From a virus: a DNA stretch of 34,165 bases. The translations under genes were made by a program, and so were the position numbers. The stretch is taken from IMG/VR virus record IMGVR_UViG_3300048588_000506, positions 1-34,165 of that record. The stretch is one strand, 5' to 3'. This document shows positions 808 through 34,106 of this stretch, piece by piece. Every line of letters begins with the position of its first letter. Position 1 is the stretch's first letter. The notes beneath the pieces are model-generated. The model had not been told where the DNA came from, searched no databases, and saw only the letters and a list, made by a program, of their open reading frames with translations.

Positions 808-1224
808 ATGAGGGTAAGCATCGAGCACACGGAGAAGTCGCAGGGGCTCATTTTCAAGAAGAAACTCTACGGCTTATCGCTCACGGTGACGTTCTCGGAG
901 GAAGAAAAACAGGTCATCGAAGACCGGAAACTTCACCGGACAATTATCATCGAGCGCGGCCCGCCCGCCGATGTTAACGCGGAGAAGCACGCCAACCGGG
1001 GGCTGGCCGCGAAGATCGCCACGGCCGCGATCAAGGGCGCGGACGCCAACAATTTCCATCTCACCATCGGCAAGCTCTTGAAGGGCAAGGACACCTACTT
1101 CCTGGACGAGGTGGTCGAGGCCAAGGCCTACGAGGAGGAGGTCCGGGACTCGATGCACAAGCTCAAAAGCTACATCACGCTGAGCGAGGGGATCGAGCAG
1201 AAGTCCGACAGCTTCGAACTATGA
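808..1224 (+). CDS. Conserved hypothetical protein between two ATPase genes
   Basis: This 138-aa protein starts at an ATG preceded by a strong ribosome site (GGGAGGGCGG, 2 bases before the ATG). It has no signal peptide or membrane helix. It is mixed alpha/beta with many Lys and Glu residues, and I recognise no catalytic motif. Its stop overlaps the start of the coupling ATPase by four bases (ATGA), so the two are translationally coupled. Its place between a HerA-like ATPase remnant and a TraG/TraD-like ATPase suggests an accessory role in the same DNA-transfer or DNA-pumping machine. That role is inferred from position only. Confidence 0.6.
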   Translation: MRVSIEHTEKSQGLIFKKKLYGLSLTVTFSEEEKQVIEDRKLHRTIIIERGPPADVNAEKHANRGLAAKIATAAIKGADANNFHLTIGKLLKGKDTYFLDEVVEAKAYEEEVRDSMHKLKSYITLSEGIEQKSDSFEL

Positions 1225-3185
1225 AGGACGATTGGGGAGCCCTTATCAGCTTCGCCGTCTTTGCCTTCGCGCTAGGCGTCCTTTGGGTGGCTTTCCTGAT
1301 GACGCCCGTATTCTTGGTGGCCGGCGTTCCGGTGGTGGCGTACCTCTACCACCGGAACTCCCCCAGGACGAAAGAGAAGCTGGCGCGGCAAAGGACCGAG
1401 GCGCTGTACGAACAGGCCAGGGCCATTGCGCCGCCGAACGTGGACGCGCATGCCGATAGGCTATTCGACGCACTCGATGAAACGACCAGGGACGTGGCCG
1501 CCGCCATCTACAAGTTGGAGGGCATCGACCCGCCACCCCCGCTCCCGCCCATCTGCGACAGCATCGAGGGCGCCCGCTATCGGGACCGGCTCATCAAGTA
1601 CATCAACACCGCCCACGATCAGACGGTGTCCGACGAGTTCGTGGACGCGCTCATCGAGTGCATGCCGAGGTTTCCGCCGAGCGAGGGGATATTCGAGGCC
1701 ACCGCGACGCTCACCGGGGATGAAGTGGAACGCCTCATCGCGCCGTTCTACCGGCATGACGACTTCTTCAAGTCGCTGAAGAAGACGCTCGACCGCAATC
1801 TGACGCACCAGAAGGACGTGATGCCGAGCGACTACAAGGGCGACAACGTCACCTACGCTTACCTTCGCGATACGCCGCTCCTGGACCTCGAAACGCGACG
1901 CTTCCGCATCGGCCTCAAGGCCCGAGCCGAGCACACGCAGGTCATCGCGGCATCCGGTTCAGGCAAGACCAGCCTCCTCCAGTACCTCATCCATCACGAC
2001 CTAGACGAGGACTGTTGCGTCATCGTTATCGACAGCCAGAAGCAGCTCATCGACACGCTGGCCAAGCGGGCGGTGTGGACCGATGATATCGCCTACTTCT
2101 CGCCGCGTCATAACCTGGGCCTCAACCTGTTCGACATGCCGGTCCAGGGCGAGCAGGAGATCAATGCCGTCATCGACCTCCTGGAGTACGTCTTCGCCGG
2201 GCTGATGGACGCGAAGCTAACCACTAAGCAGGCCACGCTCTTCAACTACGCCACGCAGCTGATGATGGCTTCGAAGGGGAACCTGTCGTCGCTGCGCCGT
2301 CTCTTGCGGAAGGACGGCGGGGTGATGCCGTTCGCCACCCATATCGAGAAGCTGCCGCGGAGCGCCCAGGACTTCTTTCTTAGCGAGTTCAGCCAGAAGG
2401 GATACGATTCGACCAAAGAGGAGATCATGTGGCGCATCGATTCGATGCAGCGGAACCCCGCCTTCGCCCGCATCTTCGACGCGCCCAAGAACCCGGTCGA
2501 CATGGCGTACGAGATGCGGAACCGCGATCTCATCCTGATCGACACGGACGTGGGCTTCCTCGGGGAAACCGGCTCATCCTTCTTCGGCCGTCTGTTCATC
2601 GCCCTCATCCTCCAGGCGGCTCGGCAACGAGTAGCGTCCGGCGACGTGAAGCGTCCGGTGTACCTTTTCATCGATGAATGCGCCGCCTATCTGGACGCCC
2701 GCCTGGAGACGATGATGGTCCAGGTGCGCAAGGCCAATATCGGCGTGACGCTCGCCCACCAGGACCTCGATCAGCTGCGGAAGGCCGGCATCTTGAACAC
2801 GGTCCTGGGCGGCACAGCCACCAAGTTCGCCGGTCGGCTCTCCGACGCTGACGCCCGCGTGATGGCGTCGAACATGCGGACCAGCCACGAGTTCCTGCAA
2901 AACCTCCCCCGTTACCATTTCGCGCTCAGCCGGCTGGGCGAAGCGACGGCCGACGTGTCGTTCAACACCTGGACATATGAGAAGGCGGATAAGCGTACGG
3001 ACTACGAGGGCATGGTCGCGGAGATGGAGCGGCGGTACGGCTACACCCCGCCGCCACCGGCGCCGGAAGTTGCGCCGCCACCGCTCGATCGAACGGCACC
3101 GGCACCAAGGCCGGCCCCCAGACCGAAGGCCCCGAAACCAGCGCCTCCAGTGGATGAAGAAATCCGGCCAACGAACAAATTGTGA
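1221..3185 (+). CDS. TraG/TraD/VirD4-like coupling ATPase, membrane anchored
   Basis: This 654-aa protein belongs to the HerA/VirD4 group of DNA-pumping ATPases. Two hydrophobic segments at about residues 8-42 would anchor it in the inner membrane with the ATPase in the cytoplasm. Walker A is ASGSGKTS at about 244-251, Walker B is YLFIDEC at about 480-486, and LAHQDLDQL follows near 510, in the usual position of the post-Walker B Gln motif. The C-terminus is a Pro-rich, Lys-rich tail, probably disordered. Such ATPases recruit DNA-protein substrates to a conjugation channel. Here there are no channel (VirB) genes in view, so it would have to borrow one, or serve another DNA-translocation job. 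It starts in an ATGA overlap with the preceding gene. Confidence 0.75.
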   Translation: MKDDWGALISFAVFAFALGVLWVAFLMTPVFLVAGVPVVAYLYHRNSPRTKEKLARQRTEALYEQARAIAPPNVDAHADRLFDALDETTRDVAAAIYKLEGIDPPPPLPPICDSIEGARYRDRLIKYINTAHDQTVSDEFVDALIECMPRFPPSEGIFEATATLTGDEVERLIAPFYRHDDFFKSLKKTLDRNLTHQKDVMPSDYKGDNVTYAYLRDTPLLDLETRRFRIGLKARAEHTQVIAASGSGKTSLLQYLIHHDLDEDCCVIVIDSQKQLIDTLAKRAVWTDDIAYFSPRHNLGLNLFDMPVQGEQEINAVIDLLEYVFAGLMDAKLTTKQATLFNYATQLMMASKGNLSSLRRLLRKDGGVMPFATHIEKLPRSAQDFFLSEFSQKGYDSTKEEIMWRIDSMQRNPAFARIFDAPKNPVDMAYEMRNRDLILIDTDVGFLGETGSSFFGRLFIALILQAARQRVASGDVKRPVYLFIDECAAYLDARLETMMVQVRKANIGVTLAHQDLDQLRKAGILNTVLGGTATKFAGRLSDADARVMASNMRTSHEFLQNLPRYHFALSRLGEATADVSFNTWTYEKADKRTDYEGMVAEMERRYGYTPPPPAPEVAPPPLDRTAPAPRPAPRPKAPKPAPPVDEEIRPTNKL

Positions 3186-3279: not shown

Positions 3280-4206
3280 ATGTCAAAACCCATCGGACGC
3301 GGCTGGTTCCATGAGAAGCCGCCCGTCGAAGAGCAGATCGACCTCAAGCCGACCGAACGCCAGGCGCGCTGGCTGCGGTTCTTGCTGCTCCACGGGCCGC
3401 TGCCGTCGTCGTTTCTGTTCGCCCTGGAGGGGGAGAAGTCAGCCACCGAATTGCGGTCAGCTCAGCTTCCCCTTCGCCGCCTCTGGCAAGGCGGTTTCAT
3501 CATCCGCCCGCATCAGCAGCGCGAGACCGAGAACTCCAACTACAACGAGTACGTGTACGACCTCTCGGAGCAGGGAAGGCGGTACCTTCGCGACCAGGGC
3601 CACTGGATCGACACCGTGCGCCCGACCGGTCCATGGGTCCATCAGCTGTTCGTGGCGACCGTCACCGCCACGGCCGATATCTTCTGCCAGCGCGAGGGCT
3701 ACCGCTACATCCCGCCGCATGAATATCTCGGTGAGCAACCTGCGACGGCTAAGGTGCCGTTCCATTGGGACGGGAAGGCCATCACTTTGTCTTTGGCACC
3801 CGATGCTGTCTTCGCCATCGACTACGGCAAGAGCTTCATCGCCTATGCCCTGGAGGCCGACCGGGACACCGAGATCAGCACGCCGAGGAGCCGCAATAAC
3901 CCCTACCGGAAGAGCGACCTCCGCTCCGTGCGCCAGTACGTTCAGTTCATCGGTCAGAAGCAGTACAAAACCGCCTACGGCCGCTCGGCCATGATGGTCC
4001 TGCTCTTCATCACGGCGAATGAAACCAGGAAGGCGCGGTTTCTCGATGTGGTCGCGGGCGAGATGTCGCCGTGCTCCTTCATCGCTGCCGGCGTCGTCCC
4101 CGAGTTCGGCAAGCCATGGAAGCCGCCGCGTCCGCTATTTCATCTGTTTGACCAGCCGCTCGACCGCGCCGGCAAGGACGGTTTTGTCATAAAGAAACCC
4201 GCCTAG
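3280..4206 (+). CDS. Replic_Relax-type protein (plasmid replication-relaxation family)
   Basis: The 308-aa protein has an N-terminal winged-helix-like section (TERQARWLRFLL ... LRRLWQGGFI, about residues 25-80). A larger domain follows with FAIDYGKSFIAYALEADRDTE at about 183-204, a nuclease-like acidic strand. This layout matches the Replic_Relax family found on plasmids and integrative elements, often beside TraG/TraD-like ATPases as here. These proteins are thought to process or bind the origin of replication or transfer. A GTG at 3244 in frame would add 12 residues; neither start has a ribosome site. I chose the ATG because the added residues look unstructured. The family call rests on overall pattern and context, not on an alignment. 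Confidence 0.6.
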   Translation: MSKPIGRGWFHEKPPVEEQIDLKPTERQARWLRFLLLHGPLPSSFLFALEGEKSATELRSAQLPLRRLWQGGFIIRPHQQRETENSNYNEYVYDLSEQGRRYLRDQGHWIDTVRPTGPWVHQLFVATVTATADIFCQREGYRYIPPHEYLGEQPATAKVPFHWDGKAITLSLAPDAVFAIDYGKSFIAYALEADRDTEISTPRSRNNPYRKSDLRSVRQYVQFIGQKQYKTAYGRSAMMVLLFITANETRKARFLDVVAGEMSPCSFIAAGVVPEFGKPWKPPRPLFHLFDQPLDRAGKDGFVIKKPA

Positions 4207-4266
4207 TTTCCTAAGCGGGTAGTTGCGGTCGGGCTGGGAGGGATGCCCGCCGGTCAATCATTGCAT

Positions 4267-4299
4267 GACCGTTGTATTCCTTCTCAAGGAACAACGGTC
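4267..4299. terminator. Hairpin between convergent genes
   Basis: GACCGTTG at 4267-4274 pairs with CAACGGTC at 4292-4299, and the inner TTCCTT pairs with AAGGAA, with a two-base bulge. No clear T-run follows on either strand. It lies between a plus-strand and a minus-strand gene and overlaps the stop of the latter, so it probably ends or stabilises both transcripts. Confidence 0.5.
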
Positions 4300-4522
4300 A
4301 CTGCGCCGATATCCAGTCGGTCGCCAGATCGGCGACCTTCGCGAGTACCGGGAGGTCGGCGTGCGAAAAGCTGTCGCCATCCTTCCAGTCGCCGTTGTCT
4401 TTGTACGAGCGGGTGAACGTGGTGTTGTAGTGCGCTTCGTTCTTCCAGATCGTGCATTTGACGTAGCCGATGCGGATGGTATGCGCGGGGCCGTTGCTCT
4501 TTGCCGGCTTTCCGTTTGCCAT
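4298..4522 (-). CDS. Small conserved protein of plasmid/ICE type
   Basis: This 74-aa protein starts at the ATG at 4522 on the minus strand behind GGAGAAGGAG, a strong ribosome site. It carries the pattern VKCTIWKN ... TFTRSYKDNGDWKDGDSF ... DLPVLAKVADLATDWI. I know this from a family of short proteins widespread on plasmids and integrative elements; their role is unknown. The fold looks like a small beta sheet plus a C-terminal helix. It is the only minus-strand gene in the left half of the window and has its own upstream region, so it may be expressed separately from the conjugation-like genes. Confidence 0.7.
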   Translation of the reverse strand: MANGKPAKSNGPAHTIRIGYVKCTIWKNEAHYNTTFTRSYKDNGDWKDGDSFSHADLPVLAKVADLATDWISAQ

Positions 4523-8631: not shown

Positions 8632-9018
8632 ATGGCGAAGTCGAGATTCCGCCCGCTCCATGATCGCGTCGTTGTCCGACGCGTAGAATCCGAGGAGCGG
8701 ACCCGAGGCGGCATTATCATTCCCGATACCGCCAAAGAGAAGCCGCTCGAAGGCGAAATTGTTGCGGTTGGTTCGGGTGCCCGAGACGAGACAGGCAAGC
8801 TTGTCCCGCTGGATGTCCGGTCGGGTGATCGTGTCCTCTTTGGAAAGTGGTCTGGCACAGAGGTGAAACTCAACGGTGAAGAGCTCCTTATTCTGAAGGA
8901 GTCCGACATCATGGGGATAATCGGGGGAGGAGGGAGGGTATACCTACGAGGCGGCGGCCTCGCGGGTGATCCCGGGACTGGCTCAGAGCCTCGACCGACT
9001 AAGCGCCGGCGCAAGTAG
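8632..9018 (+). CDS. groES: Co-chaperonin GroES with a basic C-terminal extension
   Basis: Residues 5-95 are a standard Gro[21 protein letters not shown], the mobile-loop contact [10 protein letters not shown] that docks on GroEL, and [20 protein letters not shown]. It closely resembles rhizobial GroES. Normal GroES is about 95-105 residues; this one has 128, ending in a Gly-rich then Arg/Lys-rich tail ([12 protein letters not shown]). No groEL follows, so it must work with host GroEL, as phage co-chaperonins do for coat protein folding. It lies shortly before the packaging and coat genes. Low-quality ribosome site; a TATAGT-type -10 lies about 40 bases upstream. Confidence 0.9.
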
Positions 9019-14572: not shown

Positions 14573-15517
14573 GTGGCATTCGCATCACCCACCGACGCCT
14601 TCACCAAGGCGAACATGGACCCGTTCATCAAGGAGGTGTGGTCCCCGATCATTCACGATCTGAAGCAAGCTCAGATGTCCATTCTGAACTTCGCGCAGGA
14701 CCTGTCCTACCTCCTGTCGGACGGCGGCGACGTCATCAACGTCCCGAACATCTACACCAACGTCTTCTCCGTTCAGACCCAGTCTACGGAGGGCGCCGGT
14801 GTCGTCGACGAGTCACCGGCACCGGCCAACCGGACCCTGACCGTCGACACCCACAAGTACATCGCCTTCGTCATCGGCAAGAAGACGATGAAGCAGATTT
14901 CGAAGCTGTATCCGCTCAACCAGAAGTACGCGGAACAGGCTCGTGACCTGCTGATCGCGGCGGTAGAAACCAGCCTCTTCGCGCTCGTTTCTTCGCTCAC
15001 CACCACCGATGTCGGCAGCGGCACCACCGCCGTTTCCGACCTCACGGTGCGCTCGGCGATCAAGACCCTTACCAGCACCGACGGCTCGGTCTTCGAACTT
15101 TCGAAGATGGGCTGGTTCTTCCACCCGACCGTGTACTGGATGCAGCTTCTCGGTATCTCCAAATACTACGAGAAGCAGAAGTCCGGCATGCAGCCGGTGA
15201 AGGACGGCAACTTCGGTGCCGGCGCGGTGTCGGAGTCGTACATGGGCCGCCTCTACGGCATCCCGTTGTACGTCTCACCGCGCGTACCGGTGGCGGCAAC
15301 CGTCGTGTCCAACATGCTCTTGCATGAGGACGCTTTCGGCTTCGCCATGCACACGGACGGTCAGAATGGCATCGACATCGCCACTGACTACCTCGTGCAG
15401 AACCTCGCCTGGCTTACCGTCGTAGATATCATCTACGGCGTAGCCTGCCTGCGCACCGGCGCGGGCGTCACGGTCCTCGCCGACGAGGAAGAGACCGTGG
15501 CCGACGACGAGAGCTAG
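14573..15517 (+). CDS. Major capsid protein (HK97-fold type)
   Basis: This 314-aa protein starts at GTG 14573, giving MAFASPTDAFTKANMDPFIK; an ATG at 14614 would cut off a typical coat N-terminus. Segments such as GGDVINVPNIY, VDTHKYIAFVIGKKTMKQIS and LYGIPLYVSPRVP are familiar from P22-like and related coat proteins, where the middle part forms the spine helix and P-domain. It follows the scaffold gene and is followed by a strongly structured spacer (15525-15584). There is no ribosome site before the GTG. The acidic tail (DEEETVADDES) is unusual but plausible. Probably the most abundant virion protein. Confidence 0.88.
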   Translation: MAFASPTDAFTKANMDPFIKEVWSPIIHDLKQAQMSILNFAQDLSYLLSDGGDVINVPNIYTNVFSVQTQSTEGAGVVDESPAPANRTLTVDTHKYIAFVIGKKTMKQISKLYPLNQKYAEQARDLLIAAVETSLFALVSSLTTTDVGSGTTAVSDLTVRSAIKTLTSTDGSVFELSKMGWFFHPTVYWMQLLGISKYYEKQKSGMQPVKDGNFGAGAVSESYMGRLYGIPLYVSPRVPVAATVVSNMLLHEDAFGFAMHTDGQNGIDIATDYLVQNLAWLTVVDIIYGVACLRTGAGVTVLADEEETVADDES

Positions 15518-15524
15518 TCTCTCA

Positions 15525-15584
15525 CCGGTCGCTGACCGCCCTCCCATCCATTGCGGTTGGGCGGTCCGCAATGGAAACGACCGG
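15525..15584 (+). promoter_or_regulatory. Interlocked RNA stems after the coat gene (possible pseudoknot or switch)
   Basis: Three perfect inverted repeats are packed into 60 bases: 15525-15531 with 15578-15584 (7 bp), 15534-15541 with 15559-15566 (8 bp), and 15548-15556 with 15566-15574 (9 bp). The second and third cross each other, so they can form either two alternative hairpins or a pseudoknot inside the outer stem. There is no T-run, so this is not a simple terminator. Candidates are an attenuator, an RNase block protecting the coat message, or a translational control site. Confidence 0.6.
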
Positions 15585-15611
15585 CAATTATCCACCGTTC
15601 AGCATCACACC

Positions 15612-16007
15612 ATGATTTATCTATTCCGCAAGTTTAACGGCCAGATCACGATGGCCACCGGCGCGGCGGCCTGGGAGCTGTACTCATCGGATGGCCAGTG
15701 GAAGCACCGGCCGCAGTACCTTGGCGCCGTCACCGAGCAGTTCTATCGTCAGTTGAAGGCGGCGCTGCAAGCGCAGGTGCCGATAGACCCGGCCCTCTAT
15801 TCAGCCGTGAACAAGGGCGACCAGTCCAAGGACGCGCCGCTCCGCTCGGCCACCAGCAAACGCCGGAAGCTGGAGGCGACGCTATATGAGGAGCTGGTAG
15901 CGGCGGCCGACCGCACGGAGAAGCCGCGCAACATGAACGTCATCAATCGCGACGCTTTGAAGCCGCACGAGCAGAAGGCGCTCGATAAGCTTATCGCCGG
16001 GGCATGA
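15612..16007 (+). CDS. 131-aa hypothetical head protein
   Basis: It starts at the ATG after the structured spacer and overlaps the next gene by four bases (ATGA). The N-terminus has a beta-rich stretch (MIYLFRKFNGQITMATGAAA) and the rest is helical and basic, with KRRKLEATLYEELVAAAD. There is no membrane or signal segment. It begins a run of four overlapping genes (15612-17029) that ends at a strong terminator. By position these may be head-completion or minor capsid proteins, but I recognise none. Confidence 0.6.
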   Translation: MIYLFRKFNGQITMATGAAAWELYSSDGQWKHRPQYLGAVTEQFYRQLKAALQAQVPIDPALYSAVNKGDQSKDAPLRSATSKRRKLEATLYEELVAAADRTEKPRNMNVINRDALKPHEQKALDKLIAGA

Positions 16008-33845: not shown

Positions 33846-34106
33846 TTAGAAAACCAAGTCGTCAGCCTAGAGCTGGCCAAGAAGCTTAAAGAGTTGGGAG
33901 TGAAGCAGGAGAGTCATTTTCGATGGATTAAAGACTTTGATAGTTCCATGGATGGATGGTGCGTCACCACGTTACCAGGAGTAGATAGTCGAGAATGGTA
34001 CGCCGCCTTCACCGTCGCAGAGCTGGGGGAGATGCTTGAACCGAGCTTGTCGATGCCAACGAAAGTGTGGCCTGCTGCCGGTTTTTCGGACACCAGGTTA
34101 AGCTAA
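33846..34106 (+). pseudogene. Small phage protein, lost start codon and 3' end replaced by IS sequence
   Basis: The frame reads LENQVVSLELAKKLKELGVK and later AAFTVAELGEMLEP, a well-known short phage protein pattern that normally starts with Met. Here AAGGAGG (33832-33838) is 7 bases before TTA, in the place of the start codon, and no ATG, GTG or TTG follows at usable spacing. The native sequence stops at 34067, where the IS repeat begins. The last 12 residues before TAA at 34104 come from the IS. It is probably inactive. Confidence 0.7.
34068..34094. repeat. Terminal inverted repeat of IS (OrfB end)
   Basis: It begins TGGCCTGCTGCCGG and ends GGACACC. It matches the reverse complement of 100-126 at 24 of 27 positions. 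Confidence 0.88.

Follow-up and report, generated by a model that had tools for sequence, protein, structure and literature searches.

In the retroregulation of the lambda int gene by sib, a long hairpin that is cleaved by RNase III destabilizes the int RNA. In this system, as with the REP-type hairpins that stabilize mRNAs, how strongly a gene is expressed depends on a structure at its 3' side, via RNA decay or processing. Another structured RNA, Mu-gpT-DE, is reportedly located after the major capsid genes of Mu-like phages. The L17 downstream element is a structured RNA motif in a downstream (3' UTR) position (PMC2864571). The autoregulatory pseudoknot of gene 32 in the phages T4 and T2 is located in the 5' leader, 67 nt upstream of the start codon, and consists of two coaxially stacked helices and two loops (PMC3014915). 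Viral exoribonuclease-resistant RNAs, such as those of flaviviruses that resist the 5'-3' exonuclease Xrn1, adopt a compact pseudoknotted fold that is regarded as blocking the exonuclease mechanically (PMC5760640).

Here, we describe an element that follows the major capsid gene in the window, by which we mean the whole virus record of 34,165 bases. The element is best explained as an RNA structure that acts in cis within the phage mRNA, in which a closing stem (A) surrounds a pseudoknot formed by two further stems (B and C) with abutting 3' arms. At the level of sequence, the comparison with related phages demonstrates the crossing architecture of the stems, their place after the capsid gene, their covariation, their absence elsewhere in the loci scanned and, on the capsid tree, repeated switches between the element and intrinsic terminators.

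The three-stem element and its genomic surroundings

The gene content of the window includes large terminase, major capsid, GroES, RusA and primase-type genes, of which the phage-encoded GroES is located at positions 8632-9018 (Cpn10, E 5.6e-36). A TraD/TraG-type coupling-protein-like ATPase (1221-3185) adjoins a Replication-relaxation protein (PF13814; 3244-4206), a pairing in a phage genome that resembles conjugative elements. Inverted repeats of 36 nt with 83% complementarity were observed near both ends of the record (92-127 and 34067-34102), and are possibly the terminal inverted repeats of a linear genome.

The element spans 60 nt (15525-15584) and contains stems of 7 bp (A), 8 bp (B) and 9 bp (C) in the order A B C B' C' A', such that B and C cross each other and both are enclosed by A (Table 1). 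An earlier note on this DNA had described these three perfect inverted repeats, two of them crossing, and they are read directly from the sequence. The coordinates and the sequence also confirm its description of a 94-base spacer, from the capsid stop at 15517 to the next ATG at 15612, in which our search identified no T-run. The capsid gene itself, which the note called the most highly expressed gene, we infer to be so. The base at 15566 is common to B' and C', so that either 8 + 8 or 7 + 9 pairs of B and C can form simultaneously.

Table 1. Positions of the stems and of the flanking genes in the window.
Feature	Sequence or product	Positions	Strand	Basis or remark
Major capsid gene	GTG start, 314 aa	14573..15517	+	Immediately precedes the element; match to PHROG 267 major head protein, E 1.7e-7
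Stem A, 5' arm	CCGGTCG	15525..15531	+	Closing stem in all 28 members
Stem B, 5' arm	GACCGCCC	15534..15541	+	Sequence; descriptor members
B-C linker	TCCCAT	15542..15547	+	Sequence
Stem C, 5' arm	CCATTGCGG	15548..15556	+	Crosses B
Stem B, 3' arm	GGGCGGTC	15559..15566	+	Sequence
Stem C, 3' arm	CCGCAATGG	15566..15574	+	Abuts B'; base 15566 shared
Stem A, 3' arm	CGACCGG	15578..15584	+	Sequence
Next gene	131 aa	15612..16007	+	Without PHROG or Pfam match

The predicted folding energy of the 60-nt RNA is -31.0 kcal/mol (z = -3.35; none of 200 shuffles was as good), a value that leaves out the crossing stem C, as the folding program does not consider pseudoknots. We therefore also used a three-stem descriptor, consisting of the helices A, B and C and a gap of 0-3 nt between B' and C', which scored 62.4 at this site as compared to 45.6 for the runner-up on either strand of the window. 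No descriptor matches were obtained in 60 shuffles of the window spacer, and no second copy of the element was found in the window record; a DNA repeat family was rejected because the element is present in a single copy. A reading frame of 14 codons (METTGNYPPFSITP; 15571-15615) starts within arm C', and its TGA overlaps with the next ATG (ATGA). It possibly encodes a leader peptide, or it may have arisen by chance.

A search of the window against all 4,227 Rfam families produced no match above the gathering threshold, and the same search with eight relatives identified only a tRNA at the gathering score. The best sub-threshold match to the window element was to D12-methyl, with 22.5 of 57 bits and on the opposite strand. 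No description of the motif was found in a literature search, which is not proof of its absence.

Recurrence of the element in related phages

No match to the capsid or the spacer of the window was found among phage GenBank records, and many capsid relatives were recovered by scanning viral contigs and genomes. The window element itself lacks a close relative: the nearest of these capsids are about 50% identical to that of the window, and the closest one (L114) is followed by only a partial element. In L001, which has a capsid that is 41% identical to that of the window, the sequence past the stop codon reads CCATATTG TTTAGCTCTC TTA CTCTTTTTG G GAGAGCTAAA CAAAAAGAG AG CAATATGG, with a stem order identical to that in the window and a different sequence. 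Group I-like introns with homing-endonuclease-like ORFs apparently interrupt or precede the capsid genes of L017 (6537-7266) and L001 (about 3757-4327).

We applied the descriptor to two sets of distinct spacers downstream of capsid genes, 76 in total (41 + 35), of which 28 (18 + 10) reached a score of at least 47, with capsid identities down to 31%. A 29th spacer with such a score, L050, was excluded from this set since it contains a terminator with a crossing stem. The element was also recognized by eye, with a mismatch or a bulge, in four spacers (L015, L026, L037, L053), yielding about 32 members if mismatches are allowed, and it appeared to be partial in L048 and L057 as well as in L114. 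Because the descriptor demands pairing, shuffled sequences, and not the pairing itself, serve as the test: when the 76 spacers were shuffled with dinucleotide content preserved, not one of the 3,860 resulting sequences (2,460 + 1,400) reached a score of 45. In 946 kb of loci (both strands together), all matches with scores of at least 53 fell on the site behind the capsid gene, read from either strand, and a scan of viral contigs with the consensus pattern of stem A identified the element at post-capsid matches only.

Across the relatives, the element is 55-70 bases in size and begins 0 to 55 nt past the capsid stop, and its orientation relative to this stop is fixed in every member. Capsid genes at 24-28% identity (L003, L019-L023) are followed by simple hairpins or none. 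In the marine sister group, this position is taken by a simple hairpin that lacks a T-run, and then by a Shine-Dalgarno-like sequence. A different three-stem layout, X Y Z X' Y' Z' with all stems crossing, was observed just past the capsid stop of L070, with the arms TTAACGGGC, AGAGAGGTGGAGG and TCTGGC followed by GCCCGTTAA, CCTCCACCTCTCT and GCCAGA.

Covariation and strand of the RNA

The 17 core pairs (5 in A, 6 in B and 6 in C) are each represented by three to six standard pair types among the 28 members, in which the core 5' arms are on average 37% identical. Paired substitutions were also observed among close relatives. Both sides were changed in 12 of the 17 core pairs between L033 and L028, and in 8 of the 17 between L016 and L129, although the capsids are 83% identical in both comparisons. 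In L043 and L086, with capsids that are 89% identical, a T-A pair in C is replaced by C-G and a C-G pair in B by T-A. The earlier note had remarked that the arrangement looks selected, and this impression is borne out by about 30 relatives, which have the crossing architecture behind their capsid genes and show compensatory changes throughout. The covariation analysis that it proposed has now revealed such changes in all three stems; the contrary outcome that it named, a lack of them in relatives, was not observed.

G-U pairs are unevenly distributed among the stems. A total of 49 were counted in the 28 members, with 27 in A, 21 in B and a single one in C, corresponding to 1 of 225 pairs in C as compared to 48 of 500 in A and B (Fisher p = 2e-7). 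Since each G-U pair in plus-strand RNA corresponds to an A-C mismatch in RNA of the opposite sense, the structured molecule should be the mRNA-sense RNA, and an antisense-strand RNA is disfavoured by the direction of these pairs.

Pseudoknot or alternative folds

Crossing of the helices B and C is common to the 28 members, and each of the two covaries, as expected of an RNA pseudoknot. The element does not have the classical H-type geometry with a third loop that spans stem 1 between B' and C', as this linker measures 0-3 nt in all members. An initial notion, that B and C could not co-exist without a B'-C' linker, was dropped because a rigid-helix bead model contradicted it for the linkers of the window. 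In this model, which is a coarse test of the geometry, the helices A7, B8 and C9 co-exist at zero cost with the window linkers, and A, B and C were also accommodated for most of the relatives tried.

The earlier note had allowed for either a pseudoknot or a two-state switch, in which the B and C hairpins would be alternative folds chosen by a ribosome, the polymerase or a ligand. That B and C cross is itself compatible with a switch, and the bead model fails for the longest forms of B with linkers of 0-2 nt (L012 and L034), which are then too short for co-existence. Furthermore, a fold of the window strand with DNA parameters prefers C, and C is energetically favoured over B in L106. In 26 of the 28 members, however, the predicted energies favour A+B over A+C, with a mean advantage of 6.2 kcal/mol, and C is thus not a balanced alternative. 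Moreover, B and C compete for one base only, and the model accommodates both helices when given the linkers found in the window and in most relatives. B would also be completed before C during transcription. Given that B is favoured and made first, and that C is kept nearly free of G-U pairs, C is hard to explain unless it is formed together with B. Judging from the modelled energies, from how rarely C contains a G-U pair and from the coarse geometry, we favour the pseudoknot, which is the part of the earlier proposal that is strengthened; the switch is retained as a rival, albeit an unlikely one.

Exchange with intrinsic terminators

Intrinsic terminators, recognized as a G+C-rich hairpin followed by a U-run, occupy the same spacer in 12 relatives (L017, L029, L030, L032, L040, L041, L049, L050, L091, L110, L122 and L123). 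This reading was rejected for the window element, which has hairpin B but no T-run, and standard intrinsic termination is for this reason not expected. As judged from the spacer sequences, the element has repeatedly been exchanged with intrinsic terminators on the capsid tree, with labels that were assigned partly by eye: the tree requires 12 changes for the element, of which at least nine are forced by well-supported branches, and eight changes for the terminator, of which at least seven are forced. The sister pairs L033/L091, L034/L032 and L106/L050 are split between element and terminator. In the first of these pairs, with capsids that are 82% identical, TATAAT is located 7-8 nt before the next ATG in both phages. 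The exchange is one of shared position, and does not establish a shared action.

The terminator in L050 has a loop that pairs with an upstream stretch, and in L106 the sequence TTTGTTT comes directly after the G+C-rich C hairpin. The two sister phages thus seem to represent an intermediate, and their spacers are possibly pseudoknotted terminators or antiterminators.

The downstream edge of the element

The end of A' is located at most 2 nt from, or overlaps with, the next ATG in about 15 members, corresponding to about half of them (e.g., L012, L014, L016, L034, L064 and L105). An ATG at the foot of helix A could thus indicate either a leaderless message that arises by processing or a start codon that is sequestered. 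In the window, 27 nt separate A' from the ATG. A gene with the motif YFF-K-NG-I is located downstream of the element or the terminator in most relatives; in L016 and L062 the next gene is unrelated, and the element remains with the capsid gene. A frameshift or readthrough signal was rejected, as an in-frame TGA is present six codons past the capsid stop and the relative frame of the next gene differs between the window and L001.

Shine-Dalgarno motifs are rare in these phages. Boxes resembling a -10 promoter element are located 6 nt before the ATG in 11 of 317 ORFs, as compared to about three at other spacings, and about half of these cases concern the gene after the capsid. This spacing corresponds to the layout of leaderless transcripts, and such candidate promoters are here referred to as leaderless-type. 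Eight loci have a -10-like box exactly 6 nt before the post-capsid ATG and no Shine-Dalgarno motif (L029, L030, L032, L040, L041, L043, L049 and L058). A leaderless promoter within A' itself is not supported, as the -10-like sequences AATAAT and AACAAT are located about 2-3 nt from the ATG, and not 6-7 nt.

Proposed function and rival explanations

We consider the chances about even that the element acts as a boundary of the capsid mRNA that does not depend on a U-run, be it as a stabilizer, a processing site or an attenuator. This reading is suggested by its position, by its association with the capsid gene and not with the next gene, and by its exchange with terminators. The knot would form on the nascent capsid transcript as a compact and mechanically stable structure, and would constitute the 3' boundary of the capsid message. 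There, it would hold up 3'-5' exonucleases and possibly also RNA polymerase or the next ribosome, with the consequence that capsid mRNA and protein would accumulate over the products of the downstream genes. Where a leaderless-type promoter is present past the element, it would drive the downstream gene, which would alternatively be expressed from read-through or processed RNA with the AUG at the foot of helix A. The location of A' within 2 nt of the ATG in about half of the members is as suggestive of a role in translation or RNA processing as it is of a 3' end.

The main rival, which is credible but has distinctly less than an even chance, is translational control, according to which the knot would hide the region just upstream of the next start codon and repress the next gene, with relief perhaps provided by a ribosome at the capsid stop that melts helix A, or with a phage protein binding as it does to the autoregulatory operators of phages. 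The members with A' next to the ATG fit this explanation, as does the rarity of Shine-Dalgarno motifs, and a pseudoknot that serves as a translational operator has a phage precedent in gene 32 (PMC3014915). The explanation is less easily reconciled with the 27 nt between A' and the ATG in the window, or with L033, L043, L045 and L086, in which the ATG is located at least 26 nt past A' with a -10-like box in between. The variable distance from the capsid stop to A, the unrelated next genes in two of the phages and the terminators at the same place in sister phages also speak against it. Cleavage at the foot of helix A, by processing or self-cleavage, would yield both a protected capsid 3' end and a leaderless message that starts from the AUG. 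Such a cut would explain why A' abuts the AUG, and element-less relatives have leaderless-type -10 boxes 6-8 nt before the same ATG, but a ribozyme core is unlikely with so few unpaired conserved bases, and 5-30 nt intervene between A' and the ATG in the window and several other members; we regard this possibility as rather improbable. Finally, all three stems are inverted repeats in the DNA and C is almost purely Watson-Crick, which would suit protein-binding repeats or a cruciform acting at the DNA level. We find this highly improbable in view of the 48 G-U pairs in A and B, the fixed orientation after the capsid stop, the exchange with terminators, which act as RNA, and a near-complete sequence turnover that is unlike that of a protein-binding site.

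Extending the reading as an mRNA boundary, we tentatively raise the possibility of a new class of phage mRNA element: a knot without a loop between its 3' arms that would end the capsid message without a U-run, be interchangeable with a terminator in evolution and, in many phages, also determine where a leaderless message for the downstream gene begins, at the foot of helix A.

Comparison with known systems

Among DNA phages, the element stands out as an unusually clear case of a structured RNA, in that its three stems are maintained although their sequence has been replaced almost completely, and in that it occupies a single fixed position in the loci examined. Its exchange with terminators offers a natural experiment on how a very abundant capsid protein is separated from the genes that follow, and raises the possibility that a pseudoknot does the job of a terminator or an mRNA stabilizer without a U-run. 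The absence of a loop between the two 3' arms is also a structural question of interest.

With intrinsic terminators, the element shares the genomic position in sister phages and a G+C-rich hairpin (B), but it has no U-run and contains in addition a crossing helix (C) and a closing helix (A). In contrast to the long hairpin of lambda sib, it is a compact pseudoknot at a site where relatives carry a terminator. It also differs from both the L17 downstream element and Mu-gpT-DE in its pseudoknot of three helices, arranged as A B C B' C' A', which has been exchanged with terminators and, in the window and eight relatives, matched no Rfam family at the gathering score. Like the L17 downstream element (PMC2864571), it is a structured RNA directly after a gene that is presumably highly expressed, with a function that is proposed only. 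The gene 32 pseudoknot and the element described here are both located in phage mRNA and have two crossing helices, but here a closing stem surrounds the knot and there is no loop between the two 3' arms. The likeness to exoribonuclease-resistant RNAs (PMC5760640) lies in the proposed compact pseudoknotted fold, with the blocking of exonucleases being likewise a proposal for the phage element.
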